From a virus, in IMG/VR virus record IMGVR_UViG_3300019889_000112, positions 1-31,011 of that record: a stretch of DNA of 31,011 nt, one strand, 5' to 3'. Below the pieces are notes generated by a model. The model did no database searches, had not been told where the DNA came from, and saw only the letters and a program-made list of their open reading frames with translations. Below, piece after piece: positions 2,459 through 27,653 of this stretch. The position numbers and the translations under genes are program-made. Each line of letters begins with the position of its first letter. The first letter of the stretch is position 1.

Positions 2459-4558
2459 TTAAGCTCCTACTAATTGATTCTTATATCTCTTTTTAACAAG
2501 ATACTCTGCTACTTCTCTAATGATATCATTTTCTTCCCAAGTTAATTCAGCATCTTTATCATTCATAGTCTTCTTGAATGCTAGTCTCTTCCTTTCGACT
2601 ATCTCAGTTAGAATGCTATCAACTGTTCCATCTGCTATCATGTATGGAACACGAATGCTTGGTTGTTTGGGAGAATGGTCTTCTTTAAAGAGATGCTCCT
2701 GCAAATAAGGCGGATAGTCTTCCCACGTTAATGGACGGGAAAATCTCAATTCCGCCTGTTCCTCATTGCCCGGATTCCATTGCCTCTCTAGCATGATAGC
2801 ATTCTGGCAGAACTGAATATTCAATCCTTCGCCTGAAGCTAATGTGCTAGCTACTAAGATACGGCATTGAGAATCGTTTTTAAACTTCTGAATAATCCTA
2901 TCTCTTTCTTCTGGACCTTTCCCACCGAATAGTCTCAATGTTTTAGATAATCCCTGAGATTCAAGATACTTATCTAATCCTTCGTAAGTATGCCCATCAC
3001 CTTGTTGTAGATTATCTCCTACATCTATATGATGATGGAAGATAGTCAACTTTTCTGATTCAGGAGTATTGTCAATAAACTCCTGCACATCATCTATGCA
3101 TACTTGGACTTTAGCTAGGCCAGTGATATGCTTTAGTTGCATAATCATGCCTGCTATGTTAGCTAATGGTTGCCCATCTATCATTGCAGCTTTTACGATA
3201 TTCGCTACTTTCTCCTCTGCTTTATCGTAAGCTTGTTTATAGAGAGCTTCCATGTCTATAAAACGGATTTGACGGTTAATTTTTGGAAGATCAGGAAGGA
3301 CATCATCGCGCAGTCTACGAAGTACAATATCCTTTGTATAGTTACGAAATTCTTTTATATTTTTAATTCCGCGTTGAACGTATTTCCCTTTCTTATTGTC
3401 ATACTCATAGTCAACCCAATCATTTTTGAATTTCTCTTGACTGGGGAATCTGACGGCATCGAGCATATTCAATACTGGAAAATATTCTTGTCCTCTATTC
3501 TTCCACGGTGTGCCTGATAAGGGGATAAAATATTCTGCGCTAGTAACTAACTTCCTTAGCTCAGCAGTTCTAGAAGAATCTGGATTTTTGAAGTGTTGTA
3601 TTTCATCTGCTACAACTGTCTTGAATCCTATCTTTTCAATCTTCTCACTTGGCATATTGCGAAGAAGGTCCATTGAGATGATATACATCTTCAGGCCGGG
3701 CAAAATGAATGAGCGCGGGTTCTCAATTATCTGGGCCATAAATGCAGGCCCACACCAGTCTAATGCTTCCTTTAATGCCTGAATCTTTAATGTTGCCTTA
3801 CATACCCATAATACTGGAGTGCATTCATTAGCATGGAAGTATGCAAAGCCTAAAGCTTGGATAGTCTTACCTAATCCTGGTTCATCTGCAATTAATCCTC
3901 TGCCGGAAGCTTGTTCAAGAAACTCTATTCCTTCGGCTTGATAAGGGAATATCGTCTTACTACCACTAATGTTAGTCCAAGACTTATAATCTACTTTCTG
4001 ACTTTGCAACTGTTCATGCTTAACTAGATGGCTGCACTCTAAAAGAGTCCATTTTATTCCATTCATGACTATCGAGCTTTTTTCAATAGCCTTCTTATCG
4101 CATGTAGGACATTTAATGTCTATCCTATGAAATGTTCGCTTTGGTAAGGTTTCACTGGCTTGTATAGCTCTGCCTACATCTATCTTTAGTTTAGGCCCAC
4201 ATGGTTGAGGATTAGATAGGCCAATAGACTTTGCCTTATCTATCCATACTTGCGTATGTCCATGACCGGGACCAACTAGCGCGTGGGCTATTTCATGCAG
4301 AATAGTCTGTGTTAAATCTATCTCACTACATGTATTTAGATGATGAAGATTGATAACTACTCTCTTCTCATCATGATAACATCTAGCGAGCCAATCACTT
4401 GCCTTAGTAAATGTTGTTTTCCATCCTTTAGAGTATAAAGAAACAAACTTTTTGGCTGAACTGTCAGGCCCCATTTCTTCGCTAGGACGGTCTATTTCAT
4501 AACCATGCAATCTCAATAAATCGTCACATTGCTTTTGTGCCGTATATTGGCGAATCAT
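2459..4558 (-). CDS. SprT-like metalloprotease fused to SNF2-family helicase
   Basis: A 699-residue two-part protein. The N-terminal part has a zinc metalloprotease signature, HEIAH (residues 88-92), with further histidines at 99-101 in a GPGHGH loop, as in SprT/Spartan proteins. A zinc ribbon follows (CPTC at 150-153, Cys175, His177). From about residue 195 onward it is an SF2/SNF2 ATPase: GLGKT Walker A (228-232), DEIQH motif II (318-322), SGTPW (348-352), ASGEGLN motif V (574-580) and QWNPGNEEQAELRFSRP motif VI (593-609). The open frame reaches 4573, but the ATG at 4558 overlaps the upstream stop as ATGA and has AAGG at the right distance. It probably remodels or clears proteins on DNA; protease activity is inferred from motifs only. 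Confidence 0.85.
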   Translation of the reverse strand: MIRQYTAQKQCDDLLRLHGYEIDRPSEEMGPDSSAKKFVSLYSKGWKTTFTKASDWLARCYHDEKRVVINLHHLNTCSEIDLTQTILHEIAHALVGPGHGHTQVWIDKAKSIGLSNPQPCGPKLKIDVGRAIQASETLPKRTFHRIDIKCPTCDKKAIEKSSIVMNGIKWTLLECSHLVKHEQLQSQKVDYKSWTNISGSKTIFPYQAEGIEFLEQASGRGLIADEPGLGKTIQALGFAYFHANECTPVLWVCKATLKIQALKEALDWCGPAFMAQIIENPRSFILPGLKMYIISMDLLRNMPSEKIEKIGFKTVVADEIQHFKNPDSSRTAELRKLVTSAEYFIPLSGTPWKNRGQEYFPVLNMLDAVRFPSQEKFKNDWVDYEYDNKKGKYVQRGIKNIKEFRNYTKDIVLRRLRDDVLPDLPKINRQIRFIDMEALYKQAYDKAEEKVANIVKAAMIDGQPLANIAGMIMQLKHITGLAKVQVCIDDVQEFIDNTPESEKLTIFHHHIDVGDNLQQGDGHTYEGLDKYLESQGLSKTLRLFGGKGPEERDRIIQKFKNDSQCRILVASTLASGEGLNIQFCQNAIMLERQWNPGNEEQAELRFSRPLTWEDYPPYLQEHLFKEDHSPKQPSIRVPYMIADGTVDSILTEIVERKRLAFKKTMNDKDAELTWEENDIIREVAEYLVKKRYKNQLVGA

Positions 4559-4683
4559 TTTGAAGCCTTCCATGCTTTATTGATGTAATAAATTGGAAGC
4601 GCCCAGAAAGGCCATACTACCATTAGGAATACTGCAATGTGCGTAATGTCATCTAATAGTTGCCATATATCTACACATCTCAT
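4555..4683 (-). CDS. Small membrane protein, 42 aa
   Basis: A 42-codon frame with a strong ribosome site (GAAAGG, 7 nt spacing) that ends in ATGA overlap with the SprT-SNF2 gene. The product begins MRCVDIWQLLDDITHIAVFL and continues MVVWPFWALPIYYINKAWK. Residues 14-34 are a hydrophobic, Trp-rich span, probably one membrane helix with a basic C-terminus inside the cell. Size and topology would fit a small inner-membrane effector or an accessory lysis peptide, but no family is recognised. Confidence 0.65.
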   Translation of the reverse strand: MRCVDIWQLLDDITHIAVFLMVVWPFWALPIYYINKAWKASK

Positions 4684-4695
4684 AATGAGCCTTTC

Positions 4696-5523
4696 TTAAG
4701 AATTAACAATCTTCTCAAACTCTGATTTCTTTGCAGCTTTGGCCATTTCCAGATATTTCTCTAATGTCATGCCGAGCTGCTTTGCCATCTTCTCATCTTT
4801 GGATTGTTTTACCTTACTCGGCCCTTTTGTATATTCCTTTTCACTCTTCTCTAATCCCTTAAGACCTGCCTTCTCCCTTTCGGCATACTTAACTCTGTTA
4901 ATGTAGTCTTGCCTAGGTTCTATTGCTACCTTAACTTGGAAAAGGATTATTGATAGTTCTTCAATTTGTTTGCTTATCTCAGTAATATCCTTATTGACTA
5001 GCGCAGTCGCATGATGATTGAAGATATCATTACGACTTTTAAGCACATCATCTGACCGGGAAAAACGCAAGTTAGGAGGAATCTCTAGAAGATTGTAAAT
5101 CTGTTCTAGTAAAGGACTTGAATTGTTTAGGTTGGCAGTCTTAACTCTAACGATTTCATTCTCGTTTAAGTTTAGAATGTTGTTTAGGAGGGGCTCAAAG
5201 CATTCGTCACAAATAAAATAATCCGGGCGCCATTCTCTAGTTGCCAACTTTAATGCATTATATCTCTCAATACAAGATTGGCAATACTTAACTCCCGGTA
5301 TCTTCGTTTCACTCGATTTAGAAGGCTCATGAATAGGATCGTTCTTATCCTTTCCTTCCTTTCCTTGGCCTAATTTTACTAATGGTTCTTCTATTGAAAC
5401 TTCTGGAATGGAGACAATAGGTTCAGAAATGTCTCCTTTCACTGGCTCTTTTTTGAAGAAACAAGTAGCACATTTGTTACCTGTTAATTGAGACGTAATA
5501 GGTTTGCCACATTCACAATTCAT
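4696..5523 (-). CDS. Zinc-binding protein of unknown function, 275 aa
   Basis: The protein has two cysteine clusters: C3, C5, C18 and C21 at the N-terminus, and CQSC (81-84) with CDEC (105-108) in the middle. Each is arranged like a treble-clef or zinc-ribbon site. An acidic, low-complexity linker (about 26-72) separates them. The C-terminal half is helical and Lys/Glu-rich, ending in MTLEKYLEMAKAAKKSEFEK. A ribosome site (AAGGA, 8 nt) supports the start. It lies between a 36-aa peptide gene and the membrane peptide gene in the early operon. A nucleic-acid-binding or transcription-related role is possible but unproven. Confidence 0.6.
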   Translation of the reverse strand: MNCECGKPITSQLTGNKCATCFFKKEPVKGDISEPIVSIPEVSIEEPLVKLGQGKEGKDKNDPIHEPSKSSETKIPGVKYCQSCIERYNALKLATREWRPDYFICDECFEPLLNNILNLNENEIVRVKTANLNNSSPLLEQIYNLLEIPPNLRFSRSDDVLKSRNDIFNHHATALVNKDITEISKQIEELSIILFQVKVAIEPRQDYINRVKYAEREKAGLKGLEKSEKEYTKGPSKVKQSKDEKMAKQLGMTLEKYLEMAKAAKKSEFEKIVNS

Positions 5524-5652: not shown

Positions 5653-5955
5653 TCATAATCCTTCCTTACTAATGTAGAAGAATCCTTTTGGTCCTTTGAT
5701 TCTTTTAATCTTCTCTTCCTTAATCAATTTACTTAAATTAGAAGTGATTGAACCGGGATTCTCATCGCGCAGTAATCTTACTATTCCACTTAGTAATAGA
5801 CCATGATTCTTAGATACGATATCTACTATTCTAGATTTTAGCGACTGATTAGAGAATCCAGTAAGCCGTCGGTAATAGCCCGGTAGCTCGCCGGTCTCAG
5901 CCCGGTTCAAGGTCCACGCAGGCTCCGACGCCGTAAGTCGTTCAGGCTCAATCAC
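5653..5955 (-). CDS. Winged-helix DNA-binding protein, 100 aa (first early gene)
   Basis: Translation begins at a GTG (5953-5955) preceded by AGGGGAG at good spacing. Residues 38-97 read as a winged helix-turn-helix: helix (LKSRIVDIVSKNHG), helix (LLSGIVRLLRDE), recognition helix (ITSNLSKLIKEEKIKRI), then a wing with GPKGFFYIS. The first 37 residues are proline- and glycine-rich, and their DNA is much more GC-rich than the rest of the operon because an 11-bp-phased ACCGG array (5858-5906) runs through the coding sequence. This is the first gene after the early promoter. It is the obvious candidate to bind the arrays and regulate its own operon or mark an origin; that is inference. Confidence 0.7.
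   Translation of the reverse strand: MIEPERLTASEPAWTLNRAETGELPGYYRRLTGFSNQSLKSRIVDIVSKNHGLLLSGIVRLLRDENPGSITSNLSKLIKEEKIKRIKGPKGFFYISKEGL
5858..5906 (-). repeat. 11-bp-phased ACCGG iteron array (left arm)
   Basis: On the minus strand ACCGG occurs at 5906-5902, 5895-5891 and 5884-5880, then ACCGA at 5873-5869 and ACTGG at 5862-5858, all exactly 11 bp apart. Eleven is not a multiple of three, so this is a DNA-level signal and not a peptide repeat, although it lies in the winged-helix coding region. The array starts with TTGAACCGGGC, identical to the start of the right array at 6205. Confidence 0.8.
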
Positions 5956-5976
5956 TTAGCTCCCCTAGCACTCTCA

Positions 5977-6161
5977 ACCCTCCCTATCTTACCACTAGCG
6001 ACCCCACCGTGTCAACCCCTCTTTTGGGTAGTGTGGTAGTAGAGTGAGTATTCTTTTATATATATATAATTATATATAGAACAACAAACCACCTCTAATA
6101 TCCTGCCTACTCAAAACAGGGTCTAATAGGGTGGGGTCAGCTTAGCCTAGAGGGAGAGGGT
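5977..6161. other. Large dyad around AT palindrome: candidate origin or partition site
   Basis: A perfect 18-bp palindrome (TATATATAATTATATATA, 6061-6078) is centred at 6069.5. Around it lie a 9-bp exact inverted repeat (GACCCCACC at 6000-6008, GGTGGGGTC at 6130-6138) that extends inward as an imperfect match of about 37 bp per arm (27 identities by eye). Further out are pyrimidine tracts at equal distance (ACCCTCCC at 5977, mirrored by ACCCTCTC ending at 6161). Outward-pointing ACCGG arrays flank this. The arrangement suits an origin with a DNA-unwinding element or a partition locus. The early promoter lies in the left arm. Confidence 0.6.
5986..6015 (-). promoter_or_regulatory. Sigma70-like promoter of the leftward early operon
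   Basis: On the minus strand TTGACA (6015-6010) is followed by an 18-bp spacer and TAAGAT (5991-5986). Transcription would start near 5979, leaving a short leader to the GTG at 5955. The spacer contains one arm of the GACCCCACC inverted repeat (6000-6008), so a protein bound there would block the promoter. Confidence 0.65.
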
Positions 6162-6208
6162 AGGCTGTAAGTCTTTGTCACTCAACGATTTAGCCTTGAT
6201 TCGGTTGA

Positions 6209-6268
6209 ACCGGGCCTGAACCGGCCAAATACCGGGCGTAGACCGGGGCTCTATCGGAATTATACCGG
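6209..6268 (+). repeat. 11-bp-phased ACCGG iteron array (right arm)
   Basis: ACCGG occurs at 6209, 6220, 6231, 6242 and 6264, and ATCGG at 6253. That is six units at an exact 11-bp step. The first three units read ACCGGGC, ACCGGC and ACCGGGC, in the same order as the left array read outward. The spacers between units are otherwise unlike each other. The array lies in intergenic DNA between the early promoter and the terminator of the 188-aa gene. Confidence 0.85.
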
Positions 6269-6303
6269 CGTATATGTGATATTAAATCAGTATATTTTTA
6301 GAC

Positions 6304-6343
6304 GAAAAAATAGGGAAGCTAATCGGTTAAGACTAGCTTCCCT
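6304..6343 (-). terminator. Intrinsic terminator of the 188-aa gene
   Basis: Perfect 10-bp stem AGGGAAGCTA (6312-6321) and TAGCTTCCCT (6334-6343) with a 12-nt loop. Read on the minus strand, the stem is followed by ATTTTTTCG, a proper U-tract. It lies 22 nt past the stop of the gene at 6365-6931 and insulates the origin-like region from that transcript. Confidence 0.85.
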
Positions 6344-6364: not shown

Positions 6365-6931
6365 TTAACGCTTGCCCTTGTTCGCTCGAAATTCTGCTAC
6401 TGTGTATTCTCCGAAAACTGCTGCGTTGAATTGCTTCAACATATTGATAGCAATTTCGTCGGACACATTGGAAAGTTTCATGAAATTCCTTACCATAGTA
6501 GCCTTGGAATTTCCGATATTTTCTTCCGTCAACGGAGACTTTTCGTTGAACTTCCGCTGATATGCGTTATTCTTTGCAGTCGTTTTCAGGTCGTCATTGA
6601 AAACTTCCACAAGCTTTTTGACTGCCGGTCCAGCTTTTTCACCCTTCAATGCCTCTGCCAAAAATTGCATTTGGTCGTCTGTCAGTTCCGCGCCCAGAAG
6701 ATTCAGAGCGGTAGGAAGAGAGGGAACCTGTTGATATTCGTATGGTTCCTTATCATTGGTATACCAGATGGCAATACCATTCTCTGACAATGTGGCTCCG
6801 TCTGGAAGGTCGTCTCCCTTTTCCCAATCTTCCACTTTTACGGTAATACGAAACGTATCTTTCTTCGTATCTACTTCAGCGGGAACCTGAGAATCGAAAC
6901 GACCACGGAGCGCACGTGTTGAATTACGCAT
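6365..6931 (-). CDS. Hypothetical protein, 188 aa, own transcription unit
   Basis: A soluble acidic protein with no cysteine, signal peptide or membrane segment. Residues 25-60 look like beta strands (DTFRITVKVEDWEKGDDLP, then GIAIWYTND). The rest is mainly helical, with a Lys-rich segment (LKGEKAGPAVKKLVEVF) and a C-terminal KGKR. A GAGG ribosome site 8 nt upstream fixes the start. It is monocistronic, with a strong TTGACA promoter, a leader hairpin and its own terminator, and its base composition is richer in GC than the early operon. This design suggests strong, separately controlled expression, as for an abundant early protein or a transferred cargo gene. The family is not recognised. Confidence 0.75.
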   Translation of the reverse strand: MRNSTRALRGRFDSQVPAEVDTKKDTFRITVKVEDWEKGDDLPDGATLSENGIAIWYTNDKEPYEYQQVPSLPTALNLLGAELTDDQMQFLAEALKGEKAGPAVKKLVEVFNDDLKTTAKNNAYQRKFNEKSPLTEENIGNSKATMVRNFMKLSNVSDEIAINMLKQFNAAVFGEYTVAEFRANKGKR

Positions 6932-7749: not shown

Positions 7750-8250
7750 ATGAAATTATTCATTCAAGATGACGAAGTAATTGAACAAAGAATCGAAGAT
7801 ACTTTAAAATCTCCAGATAATGGAGTAGTCATTAAGTCGCAAGTGGGAATTAAGATTGGTGAGAATCGTTCTGATTTAACTAAAGAGATTACAGCATTAG
7901 ATAGTTTAGAAATTGGCGCGACTAAGGCTGGCGAAATTAATGGAGTTCCACAAAGTTCGGCGAGTAAATATGCGGTTGGAAAAGATATAGCGGATGATGA
8001 GACGCGCGTGAGAGTTTTAAATATTAGAAATCAGATTTCTGATATGGCTACCTCAAAGTTAATGGACACTCTTGATTTATTTGACCCTACTGATATTGAG
8101 AAGCCTAGAGAGCTAATAGCAGCAGCGCGCGACTTATCTACTATCGTTGAAAAGATTTCTGGTAAAGGCGAGAAGGACCAGCAGGTTCATCTTCATATGT
8201 ATATGCCTAATCAGAATAAAGTTGAGAAGTATGAAGTGATTGATGTTTAG
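7750..8250 (+). CDS. Terminase small subunit (probable)
   Basis: The 166-residue protein has a helix-turn-helix at about residues 55-78 (IGATKAGEINGVPQSSASKY), the DNA-recognition type used by small terminase subunits to bind the packaging site. The C-terminal half is helical (oligomerisation), then a tail with HLHMYMPNQ. It is the first gene after the late promoter and lies three genes before the large terminase. The leader has no clear Shine-Dalgarno, which may limit its translation. The assignment rests on the helix-turn-helix, size and position; a transcriptional regulator is the alternative. Confidence 0.65.
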   Translation: MKLFIQDDEVIEQRIEDTLKSPDNGVVIKSQVGIKIGENRSDLTKEITALDSLEIGATKAGEINGVPQSSASKYAVGKDIADDETRVRVLNIRNQISDMATSKLMDTLDLFDPTDIEKPRELIAAARDLSTIVEKISGKGEKDQQVHLHMYMPNQNKVEKYEVIDV

Positions 8251-8719: not shown

Positions 8720-10360
8720 ATGAATATTACATTAGGAGATCCAGGCAATGATTTCATTAGAGAAATTAAACCCCACTTACGACAAGAAGACTTCCTTAAA
8801 ATACCCGATGAAGTCTTCGAAGCCTTATATGGTGGGGCAGCTTATGGAGGTAAGAGTTTTCTCCTTACACTCATTCCACTTATTAGAGGCTTTTATAAAT
8901 TTAGAGGATTTAAAGGTATCCTCTTACGACGAAATTACAATGACCTCGAACGAGAAGTTATTAGGCTATCTAAAGATTATTACCCATTAACAGGCGCGAC
9001 TTATAATGAGACTAAGCATAGTTGGACATGGCCTGAATATGGAAGTTATTTCGATTTCGGCCATATCTCACATATGGCTGATGTTAAGAGACAGTATGAC
9101 ACTGCTCAGTATAATTATTGCGCGTTCGATGAACTTACTCACTTTGAAGAACAAATGTATATTTACATGGTTGGATCGCGAGTCCGACCAGGTTCTTCTT
9201 TTAATGTTGCTATTGCAAGGAGTGGAACCAATCCTGGCGGAATAGGCCAGACATTTACCTATAATAGATTTGTTAAACCAGATGAAAATGGTTACAAGAT
9301 TATCAAAGACAAAAGGACGGGACTCCTTAGGATTTATATTCCATGCTTGCCACAGGATAATCCTTATGGCATGCTGTATGACCCACAGTATTTACAAAAG
9401 CTTGAAATACTTCCAGAAGCTGAAAAGCGCGCTAAGAAATATGGCGACTGGCATGCATTCGAAGGTTCTGTATTTCCAGAATTTAGACCTATTAAGTTTC
9501 CTGCCGAGCCAGACAACGCACTCCACGTCATACCAAGCTTTACTATTCCAGAATGGTGGCCTCGCGTTCTATCAATTGACTGGGGCAAAAGGGCAATGTG
9601 CCATGCTATGTGGGCAGCAATTAGTCCAGATAAGCGAGTATACGTTTATAGGGAGAGAGCATGGATAGGACAAGATTTACCTTATTGGGCTTCAGAAATA
9701 AAAGAAGTATCGCACTTAGAGAATATAGTTCATACAGTCTTATGTGGGTCAGCTTGGCAAGATCGTGGAGTGGAAACGATAGCGGACCAATTTCAAAAGT
9801 ATGCTGGACTAGTGCCTTCTTCTAGTGATAATAGTCCAGGCTCTCGTATATCTGGATTGCAATTATGTCACGATTTCCTTAGATGGGAACAACATCATTT
9901 AATGCGGGCGCCCGGTGAAGTTTACGACTTTGAATTAGCACAGCATATATACCGGAACTTTGGTGACGGGGCTCTTATAAGATATAGGAAGCAATTCTTA
10001 GATGAAGAACCAGAAGGGAATTTACCAAGAATACAGTTCTTCGAGCAGGCTTGTCCGGTAATCATTGACACTATTCCAACGGCTGTATATGACGACAAGA
10101 GGACAGAAGACATTAAGGAATTCAATGGAGATGATCCTCTCGATAATTTTCGTTATCTCTGTCGTGCTGTTAATAGATATTGTGAAGGTCTTACAGAAGA
10201 ACTTGAACGTAAGAAGCTTATCCAGGAAGCTGTTACAAAGCTTAATGTTAGTCAAGACCAGACCCAATTCTATAGAACGATGGAAAGAATTGAGTCTAAG
10301 GAAAAGAGTTTTGGAGTAGTTAGAAAATCTAGATTAAATAGGAATAGAAAATATGGTTAG
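8720..10360 (+). CDS. terL: Terminase large subunit
   Basis: The 546-residue packaging motor has an N-terminal ATPase and a C-terminal nuclease. Walker A is GGAAYGGKS (38-46), Walker B with catalytic acid is YCAFDEL (133-139), and the coupling motif SGTNPGG is at 168-174. The RNaseH-like nuclease begins near VLSIDWGK, with Asp287 as the first metal ligand. The length is normal for the family. It pulls DNA into the prohead through the portal and cuts concatemers. An AGGGA ribosome site precedes the ATG; the last 8 bases overlap the next gene. The Asp-Trp-Gly nuclease motif also occurs in terminases of other podovirus-like phages. Confidence 0.95.
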   Translation: MNITLGDPGNDFIREIKPHLRQEDFLKIPDEVFEALYGGAAYGGKSFLLTLIPLIRGFYKFRGFKGILLRRNYNDLEREVIRLSKDYYPLTGATYNETKHSWTWPEYGSYFDFGHISHMADVKRQYDTAQYNYCAFDELTHFEEQMYIYMVGSRVRPGSSFNVAIARSGTNPGGIGQTFTYNRFVKPDENGYKIIKDKRTGLLRIYIPCLPQDNPYGMLYDPQYLQKLEILPEAEKRAKKYGDWHAFEGSVFPEFRPIKFPAEPDNALHVIPSFTIPEWWPRVLSIDWGKRAMCHAMWAAISPDKRVYVYRERAWIGQDLPYWASEIKEVSHLENIVHTVLCGSAWQDRGVETIADQFQKYAGLVPSSSDNSPGSRISGLQLCHDFLRWEQHHLMRAPGEVYDFELAQHIYRNFGDGALIRYRKQFLDEEPEGNLPRIQFFEQACPVIIDTIPTAVYDDKRTEDIKEFNGDDPLDNFRYLCRAVNRYCEGLTEELERKKLIQEAVTKLNVSQDQTQFYRTMERIESKEKSFGVVRKSRLNRNRKYG

Positions 10361-26445: not shown

Positions 26446-27653
26446 TGCCAAATCCTTTTGAAAATAATTTATTACAGGGTATCCGAAGACAGAATTTATT
26501 TGGTGTAGATTCTGGTCCTTTTGCTACTCAAGTTCCACAGGAAGAAAATAATATGTTCGAGCCTCCTCCAATTAGGCAGAGGAGTCGAATGGAAGAGTTA
26601 TATTCTCCTGAAACTCAGGCTACTGAACAATTTAATGATTTATTAGGACAATATCCTGAAAGAAATAAACCTGGATTCTTCCGTAAACTAATGGCAGGAA
26701 TGGCTGGCGATGATCAAGCAGAAGTAGAAAGTATAAGGCATGCTCCATTTTATAGAGAATTAGAAGACTGGAAGAATAAAATGGTTCCTTCTACTACTGC
26801 TATGACTAATGAAAGATTAGGTAATACTAATTCTCGAATGGCAGCTAGTCAATTACTTTCTCAAGAAACCAGAGATGCTCAATTAAATAGACAAGTTGAT
26901 AGGGATGATGTTCTTAGAAGGCAAGGAGAAGAAAGATTAAGTCAAGCAGATGATAGGATTAAGCAAGCTAATCAGCGCATGGAAATAGCTAGGGCAGTAG
27001 CTAAGGGAGGACAATTAGTTACTGATAATACTGGCAGCTATATGGTTTATAGAGATGGTAGTAAGGCTCCAGTTGATTTAAGTCTTTTATCTCAGGAAGA
27101 ATTAGAGGATTTAAGGCAAGATAATGCGCTTGAGAGAATTAAAGCACAGGGTAGGGAAACTAGAGATACTCAATCTGAGCGCCCAGGTAATAGAGATAGA
27201 TTAAGAACTGAAGTTATTGAAGACCCTGATAATCCAGGTAAGAAGATTTTAGTAACTATTAATTTAGATACTAATGAAGTTAAGCCTGCTACTCTTAATA
27301 GACAATCAGTTACTCCTGGAGTAAGAACTCCTGAAAGTGAAACTCAAAAAAGAGTAGGAGCTTTAAATAGGGCGCGCTCGGTAAAGTTGAGTAATCCACA
27401 ATGGTCCAAATGGATTAAGATTAAAGGGAATGACCTCGAGATTCAACGTCCTAATATTATGTTGCCTGGAGGTATTCCTCAAGCTGAATACGATAAGATT
27501 TATCAAGCTATTTCTGGGACTACTGCGCCTAAATTACCCAATAATCCTGCATCTAGAACCGGAACAATTAGAATTAAGGCTCCTGATGGTGTAGAAGGAA
27601 ATTGGGATTTAAGTAGAGGACCTATTCCTTCCGGCTTCACGGAGATTAAGTAA
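26445..27653 (+). CDS. Ejection/internal virion protein candidate, 402 aa
   Basis: A polar protein rich in Arg, Gln and Glu. The N-terminus reads MPNPFENNLLQGIRRQN, and a long charged coiled coil spans about 120-185 (ERLGNTNSRMAASQLLSQET, DDVLRRQGEERLSQADDRI). A small beta-type region is present near the end (TGTIRIKAPDGVEGNWDLSR). A GGGGA ribosome site precedes its start within the previous gene. The type and position suggest the second of a series of ejected internal proteins. Confidence 0.6.
   Translation: MPNPFENNLLQGIRRQNLFGVDSGPFATQVPQEENNMFEPPPIRQRSRMEELYSPETQATEQFNDLLGQYPERNKPGFFRKLMAGMAGDDQAEVESIRHAPFYRELEDWKNKMVPSTTAMTNERLGNTNSRMAASQLLSQETRDAQLNRQVDRDDVLRRQGEERLSQADDRIKQANQRMEIARAVAKGGQLVTDNTGSYMVYRDGSKAPVDLSLLSQEELEDLRQDNALERIKAQGRETRDTQSERPGNRDRLRTEVIEDPDNPGKKILVTINLDTNEVKPATLNRQSVTPGVRTPESETQKRVGALNRARSVKLSNPQWSKWIKIKGNDLEIQRPNIMLPGGIPQAEYDKIYQAISGTTAPKLPNNPASRTGTIRIKAPDGVEGNWDLSRGPIPSGFTEIK

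Follow-up and report, generated by a model that had tools for sequence, protein, structure and literature searches.

Phage replication origins are seldom found from sequence. Two sites that do not serve replication are also built from repeats: in the R1 centromere parC, the iteron unit is 11 bp and the arrays are direct, and P1 pac is a short site with repeats at either end. In R1 parC, a type II partition site, a promoter is flanked by two iteron arrays (PMC5016525); in the origins of lambda and of iteron plasmids, phased replicon-specific initiator repeats stand beside an A+T-rich region, and transcription can help the opening (PMC5043065); in HSV OriS, inverted initiator sites flank an AT spacer (PMC12543377). 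Here, we describe a large imperfect dyad in IMGVR_UViG_3300019889_000112, a contig of an uncultivated tailed phage that was analysed over its whole length of 31,011 bp (the window), and we propose, with moderate confidence, that replication starts here in both directions, at an origin that also contains an early promoter.

The terminase gene terL lies at 8720-10360 with the virion genes to its right, and the early operon runs leftwards from ~6.9 kb to the left contig end. The collections searched contain no cultured phage closely related to this group: TerL shares only ~28-32% identity with the closest cultured phages, in which the 188-aa early gene adjoining the dyad had no match, and many relatives of the contig are present in IMG/VR. 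The family of this 188-aa protein gave no significant match in Pfam, PHROG, cultured phages or the PDB despite a confident structure prediction. No plausible gene spans the dyad. The ORF that reaches into it from the left has its first GTG inside the left arm, so that its true start is probably further in; its product matched nothing in Pfam or PHROG. Further along the operon, the SNF2-type helicase carries its SprT-like domain at the N-terminus and is kept in all 14 clustered genomes.

We aligned the dyad region with its own reverse complement and obtained 63% identity over 418 gapped columns (score 66, E 7e-21), whereas 200 dinucleotide shuffles of the 900-bp region scored no higher than 30 and a second control, 100 shuffles of a 700-bp region, no higher than 23. 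No other local dyad of the contig comes near it: it scores 96.8 bits, versus 46.8 for the runner-up. The dyad is thereby confirmed as a real element with symmetry far above chance. It is also larger than in the first-pass annotation, which had given it 139-185 bp: the arms at 5878-5910 and 6205-6237 carry the symmetry beyond that span. The parts named there were all recovered. The central 18-bp AT palindrome, TATATATAATTATATATA, is perfect; the 9-bp arms, GACCCCACC (6000-6008) and GGTGGGGTC (6130-6138), are exact reverse complements, and their imperfect extension was returned by the repeat search as 32-nt arms with 78% complementarity; the mirrored tracts are pyrimidine on the left and purine on the right, with comparable tracts also in relatives; and the outer iterons are 11-bp units on opposite strands. 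From the outside inwards, the layers are thus the 11-bp iterons, a 25-bp box, the pyrimidine/purine tract, the 32-nt inner stems and the AT core (Table 1). Within the window's own group, the core takes the form of an AT palindrome; in many other relatives, it is a T16-T24 tract followed by AATAATATA.

Table 1. Coordinates of the dyad, its component parts and the neighbouring genes in the window
Feature	Position	Strand	Description
SprT-like + SNF2 helicase	2459-4573	-	Syntenic anchor for finding relatives
275-aa cysteine-rich early protein	4696-5523	-	Syntenic, downstream of dyad
ORF with winged-helix-like region	5653-5955	-	Region called by eye; first GTG start within left dyad arm
Complete imperfect dyad	5867-6270	.	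404 bp, noncoding; self reverse-complement alignment
Left iteron array	5869-5912	+	4 contiguous 11-bp units: TCGGTAATAGC CCGGTAGCTCG CCGGTCTCAGC CCGGTTCAAGG; 11/22-bp periodicity
Left 25-bp box	5934-5958	+	TAAGT-N15-ACTTA
Pyrimidine tract	5978-5989	+	CCCTCCCTATCT; mirrored by purine tract 6150-6160
Sigma70-like promoter	5986-6015	-	TTGACA-18-TAAGAT, TG before -10; points outward into leftward early operon
Inner left stem	6000-6031	+	GACCCCACC...; pairs with 6107-6138
AT core	6061-6078	.	Perfect 18-bp palindrome, read directly
Inner right stem	6107-6138	+	...GGTGGGGTC; pairs with 6000-6031
Right 25-bp box	6168-6192	-	Mirror of left box, 1 mismatch
Right iteron array	6203-6268	-	Inverted, 6 contiguous units: CCGGTATAATT CCGATAGAGCC CCGGTCTACGC CCGGTATTTGG CCGGTTCAGGC CCGGTTCAACC
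Intrinsic terminator	6312-6343	-	Between 188-aa gene and dyad
188-aa conserved early protein	6365-6931	-	Adjoins dyad; AlphaFold pLDDT 90
TerS-like gene	7750-8250		Identified solely by position and HTH-like sequence

With an alignment of SNF2 helicases as the query, we recovered 80 loci, about twenty of which bear dyads, mostly of 370-480 bp and located a few kb upstream of the helicase gene; helicase identity among the diverged dyad-bearing relatives is 33-66%. The order 188-aa gene, dyad, cysteine-rich protein, SNF2 helicase is kept in G008/G006 and in the circular G007, where the dyads span 423 and 458 bp (scores 72 and 66), and the same layout is found with weaker overall symmetry in G010 and G012. 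In distant members, the gene context is unchanged and the 188-aa homologue is shorter. Judged from these comparisons, the place and the architecture of the dyad are conserved in about 20 related contigs, with differing sequence. Some of the loci retrieved with SNF2 showed no dyad detectable by the scan; part of these are truncated, and others may have lost the dyad or have a version of it that escapes the scan. The same alignment, run against a species-genome collection, returned one remote helicase and no clue to the host.

Of all stretches of the contig with 11/22-bp periodicity, the two strongest are those that contain the iteron arrays, the right array ranking first; the right array mirrors the left one with a similarity of 0.85. 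Over both arms of 18 dyads, which were not chosen for periodicity, the mean match was 0.478 at lag 11 and 0.454 at lag 22, for a background of ~0.26. When 28 contigs were scanned for 11/22-bp periodicity, the two dyad arms came out on top in about a dozen; a pair of periodic arrays 200-520 bp apart was present in 14 of the 28, and the best pair corresponded to the dyad arms in 12 of these 14. We then compared the consensus of each array with that of its partner in the same genome (positions in G010 and G023 being picked by hand): similarity was 0.78 in inverted and 0.23 in direct orientation, versus 0.30 between genomes, and among arrays found by periodicity the own partner ranked first in 11 of 12 cases. 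The iteron motif is thus lineage-specific, both arms of one genome changing together. Such a concerted change is expected if one sequence-specific protein reads both arms, and mirroring within a genome is as expected for the sites of a replicon-specific initiator.

The 25-bp box, unlike the iteron sequence, is common to the lineages. With at most one mismatch, it was found in 30 of 46 arms versus about 4% of random 230-bp background windows, and its distance from the dyad centre is near-constant across elements. Elements L105, L130 and L132 are without the box and may be something else. Single extra copies, of the variant form TAAGTCCTTT...AACTTA and similar, were observed outside the dyad in G025 (27342-27366, ~1 kb from its dyad), G010 (6409-6433), G028 (2311-2335) and G020 (1947-1971); the box may also serve in regulation.

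These phages encode their own replication genes. A family A polymerase was present in 16 of 16 genomes tested, and all 14 clustered genomes have a DUF3987 primase/helicase-like protein, a RecA-like ATPase (called by eye) and a PD-(D/E)XK nuclease besides the SNF2 helicase; such phages need an origin. One contig, G025, is longer (62,483 bp) than its ~46-kb relatives and has two PolA and two HTH genes, possibly from a chimeric assembly or a real duplication. Iteron origins combine multiple phased repeats of one motif with an adjacent A+T-rich opening region; here, both arms have the 11-bp periodicity, and an AT palindrome or a T tract occupies the centre. The first-pass annotation had proposed an origin with a DNA-unwinding element, for which GC skew was to serve as a check. 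The anatomical side of that proposal stands, since the melting-prone core, the symmetric flanks and the iterons are present and conserved, and the skew argument is weak: GC skew does flip near the dyad, and in four complete genomes its cumulative minimum is 0.1-3 kb away, but it follows the divergence of the coding strands, and the early gene beyond the dyad retains the skew of its coding strand. GC skew was thus set aside as proof of an origin, being confounded by gene direction. With the anatomy borne out and conserved in about 20 relatives, an origin fits better than the other readings tested.

In the mechanism that we propose, replication of the theta type would start at the dyad and proceed bidirectionally. 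A phage-encoded, lineage-specific initiator would bind the 11-bp iterons, one per helical turn, on both sides and form two opposed nucleoprotein arrays, and a more conserved factor, of phage or host, would bind the 25-bp boxes. The AT core would be opened by the arrays and the box factor, acting with negative supercoiling and with transcription that starts at the promoter in one arm, and the DUF3987 protein and UDG-PolA would then be loaded onto it in both directions.

As for the initiator, no known family was found by Pfam, and no O, RepA or DnaA homologue was identified, among the proteins scanned. A candidate is a conserved HTH protein of ~84 aa whose gene immediately precedes that of UDG-PolA (42128-42409 in G007); clustering placed it in 12 of 14 genomes, and AlphaFold predicted it with a pLDDT of 96. 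In a structure search, the DNA-binding domains of ParB/Spo0J/KorB came out on top with a Z of only 7.3 and a Foldseek E >0.8, values too weak for an assignment to the ParB/KorB family, which we keep as a lead only. This ParB-like protein is a putative initiator or iteron binder; the 188-aa neighbour is likewise a candidate for a dyad binder. We also looked for the iteron binder through the co-divergence of iterons and proteins, an approach that was dropped as early, TerS-like and TerL families were indistinguishable over nine genomes (all 0.5-0.67).

The early promoter raises the question of whether the dyad serves transcription alone. In such a symmetric control region without origin function, a regulator would bind the iterons, loop the two arrays and control the promoter within the arm. 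That promoter indeed faces the early operon, 8 of 21 elements have a counterpart placed comparably, at +36 to +70 from the centre, and in several relatives a terminator keeps upstream transcription out of the dyad, with clear equivalents in G007, G008 and several others. However, the 13 remaining elements have no strong sigma70-like promoter there (note that the sigma70 consensus may not be that of the host), and the long AT or T-tract core, the 400-bp symmetry and the mirror array off the promoter side exceed the needs of known operators. We thus regard control of transcription alone as unlikely, and an origin and a promoter may share one site, the two readings not being exclusive.

The transcription signals also bear on folded forms of the dyad. 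With a terminator before the dyad and a promoter inside it, the two halves are probably not copied as one transcript, which argues against an RNA hairpin. The fold z-score of the region, about -6, is a value that any dyad yields, and no Rfam model matched in the window; a structured RNA or a cruciform was thus rejected as the main reading. The cruciform or single-stranded form that had been suggested earlier is not needed, the arms being only 63% complementary.

If the dyad were instead a headful packaging (pac) site, TerS would bind the repeats and the core would be cut to begin packaging. The circular assemblies, such as those of G007, G017 and G034, are compatible with permuted, headful-packaged genomes, and a TerS-like gene lies within a few kb of the dyad across the group. 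The dyad, however, adjoins early genes, the 188-aa gene and a noncoding stretch lie between it and the TerS-like gene, terL is ~11 kb off in G007, and mirror symmetry is unexpected for packaging in one direction; moreover, iteron similarity tracks TerS-like divergence no better than that of other genes, in a nine-genome comparison that is underpowered. Taken together, these points make a pac site improbable.

A plasmid-type centromere (parC/tubC-like) of a phage-plasmid, with a ribbon-helix-helix or HTH protein occupying the ~11-bp iterons, would account for the similar iteron length and for two arrays with a promoter between them, likewise found in R1 parC (PMC5016525). We consider it very improbable: ParA (AAA_31, PF13614) was not found in 16 genomes while the family was detected in controls, no tyrosine integrase was detected, and the inverted arrays of the dyad differ from the direct ones of R1. 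The model for ParM (PF06406) matched nothing in the genomes and was also silent in the controls, and thus says little. Least probable of all, to the point of being hardly credible, is a telomere-resolution site of the N15 type or another physical genome end at the AT core: the dyad is large with a palindromic core and the long contigs G020, G023 and G029 end in or near it, but these ends lie at long A runs, which explain them, both ends of G020 extend past the core, several circular assemblies have the dyad internal and read through the core, and no protelomerase of the ResT/TelK type (PF16684) was found in 16 genomes, the control being detected. A phage attachment site was rejected, as the tyrosine integrase PF00589 was not found in 16 genomes and the control was detected in 14.

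Literature searches returned no description of such a phage element, and cultured phages searched with the dyad DNA gave short low-complexity matches only. Four cultured phages with related PolA/DUF3987 genes showed no comparable element by automatic scan. Inspection by eye, however, showed inverted repeats around a T tract, shorter than the dyad, where early and late genes meet in Microcystis phage Mel-JY34 and Vibrio phage VS-ABTNL-3. In cultured phages that carry such PolA/DUF3987 genes, shorter inverted repeats with T8-T9 tracts at their centre were observed at the early/late boundary, at the end of the record in L210 (~44.2 kb) and at 40665-40796 in L213; in L212 (Desulfofustis phage OP947158), direct repeats TTACCAGGATAAGATTA at ~41.5 kb, near the cumulative GC-skew minimum (41466), are a possible iteron origin.

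We see it as an even call whether the dyad defines a distinct class of phage origin, common in this uncultivated clade: symmetric over ~400 bp, with opposed one-turn iteron arrays that change together, 25-bp boxes, an AT core and an initiator of unassigned family. Being recognisable by anatomy alone, through its paired inverted 11-bp arrays, the element could serve as an origin marker for metagenomic genomes; its lineage-specific iterons should point to an initiator family missed by homology searches, and it offers a test of the co-evolution of initiator and origin.

Among known systems, P1 pac resembles the dyad in having repeats at both ends, and differs by lacking the mirror symmetry, the AT core and the early-gene location. 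Compared with R1 parC, the dyad has inverted arrays and an AT core, and no partition ATPase was found (the ParM search being uninformative). HSV OriS and OriL share with it inverted sites about a central AT spacer; the dyad, however, is from a phage, is much longer and has iteron arrays rather than single boxes. With the lambda origin and the iteron plasmids P1, F and RK2, it has in common helically phased, replicon-specific repeats and an A+T-rich opening region and, with lambda, nearby transcription; it departs from them in that two opposed arrays, each of single-turn 11-bp units, are set ~300 bp apart, that the AT sequence lies exactly in the middle and that 25-bp boxes are conserved. Overall, none of lambda, the iteron plasmids, HSV OriS and R1 parC has this combination of features, and by analogy it is plausible that the dyad works like an iteron origin.
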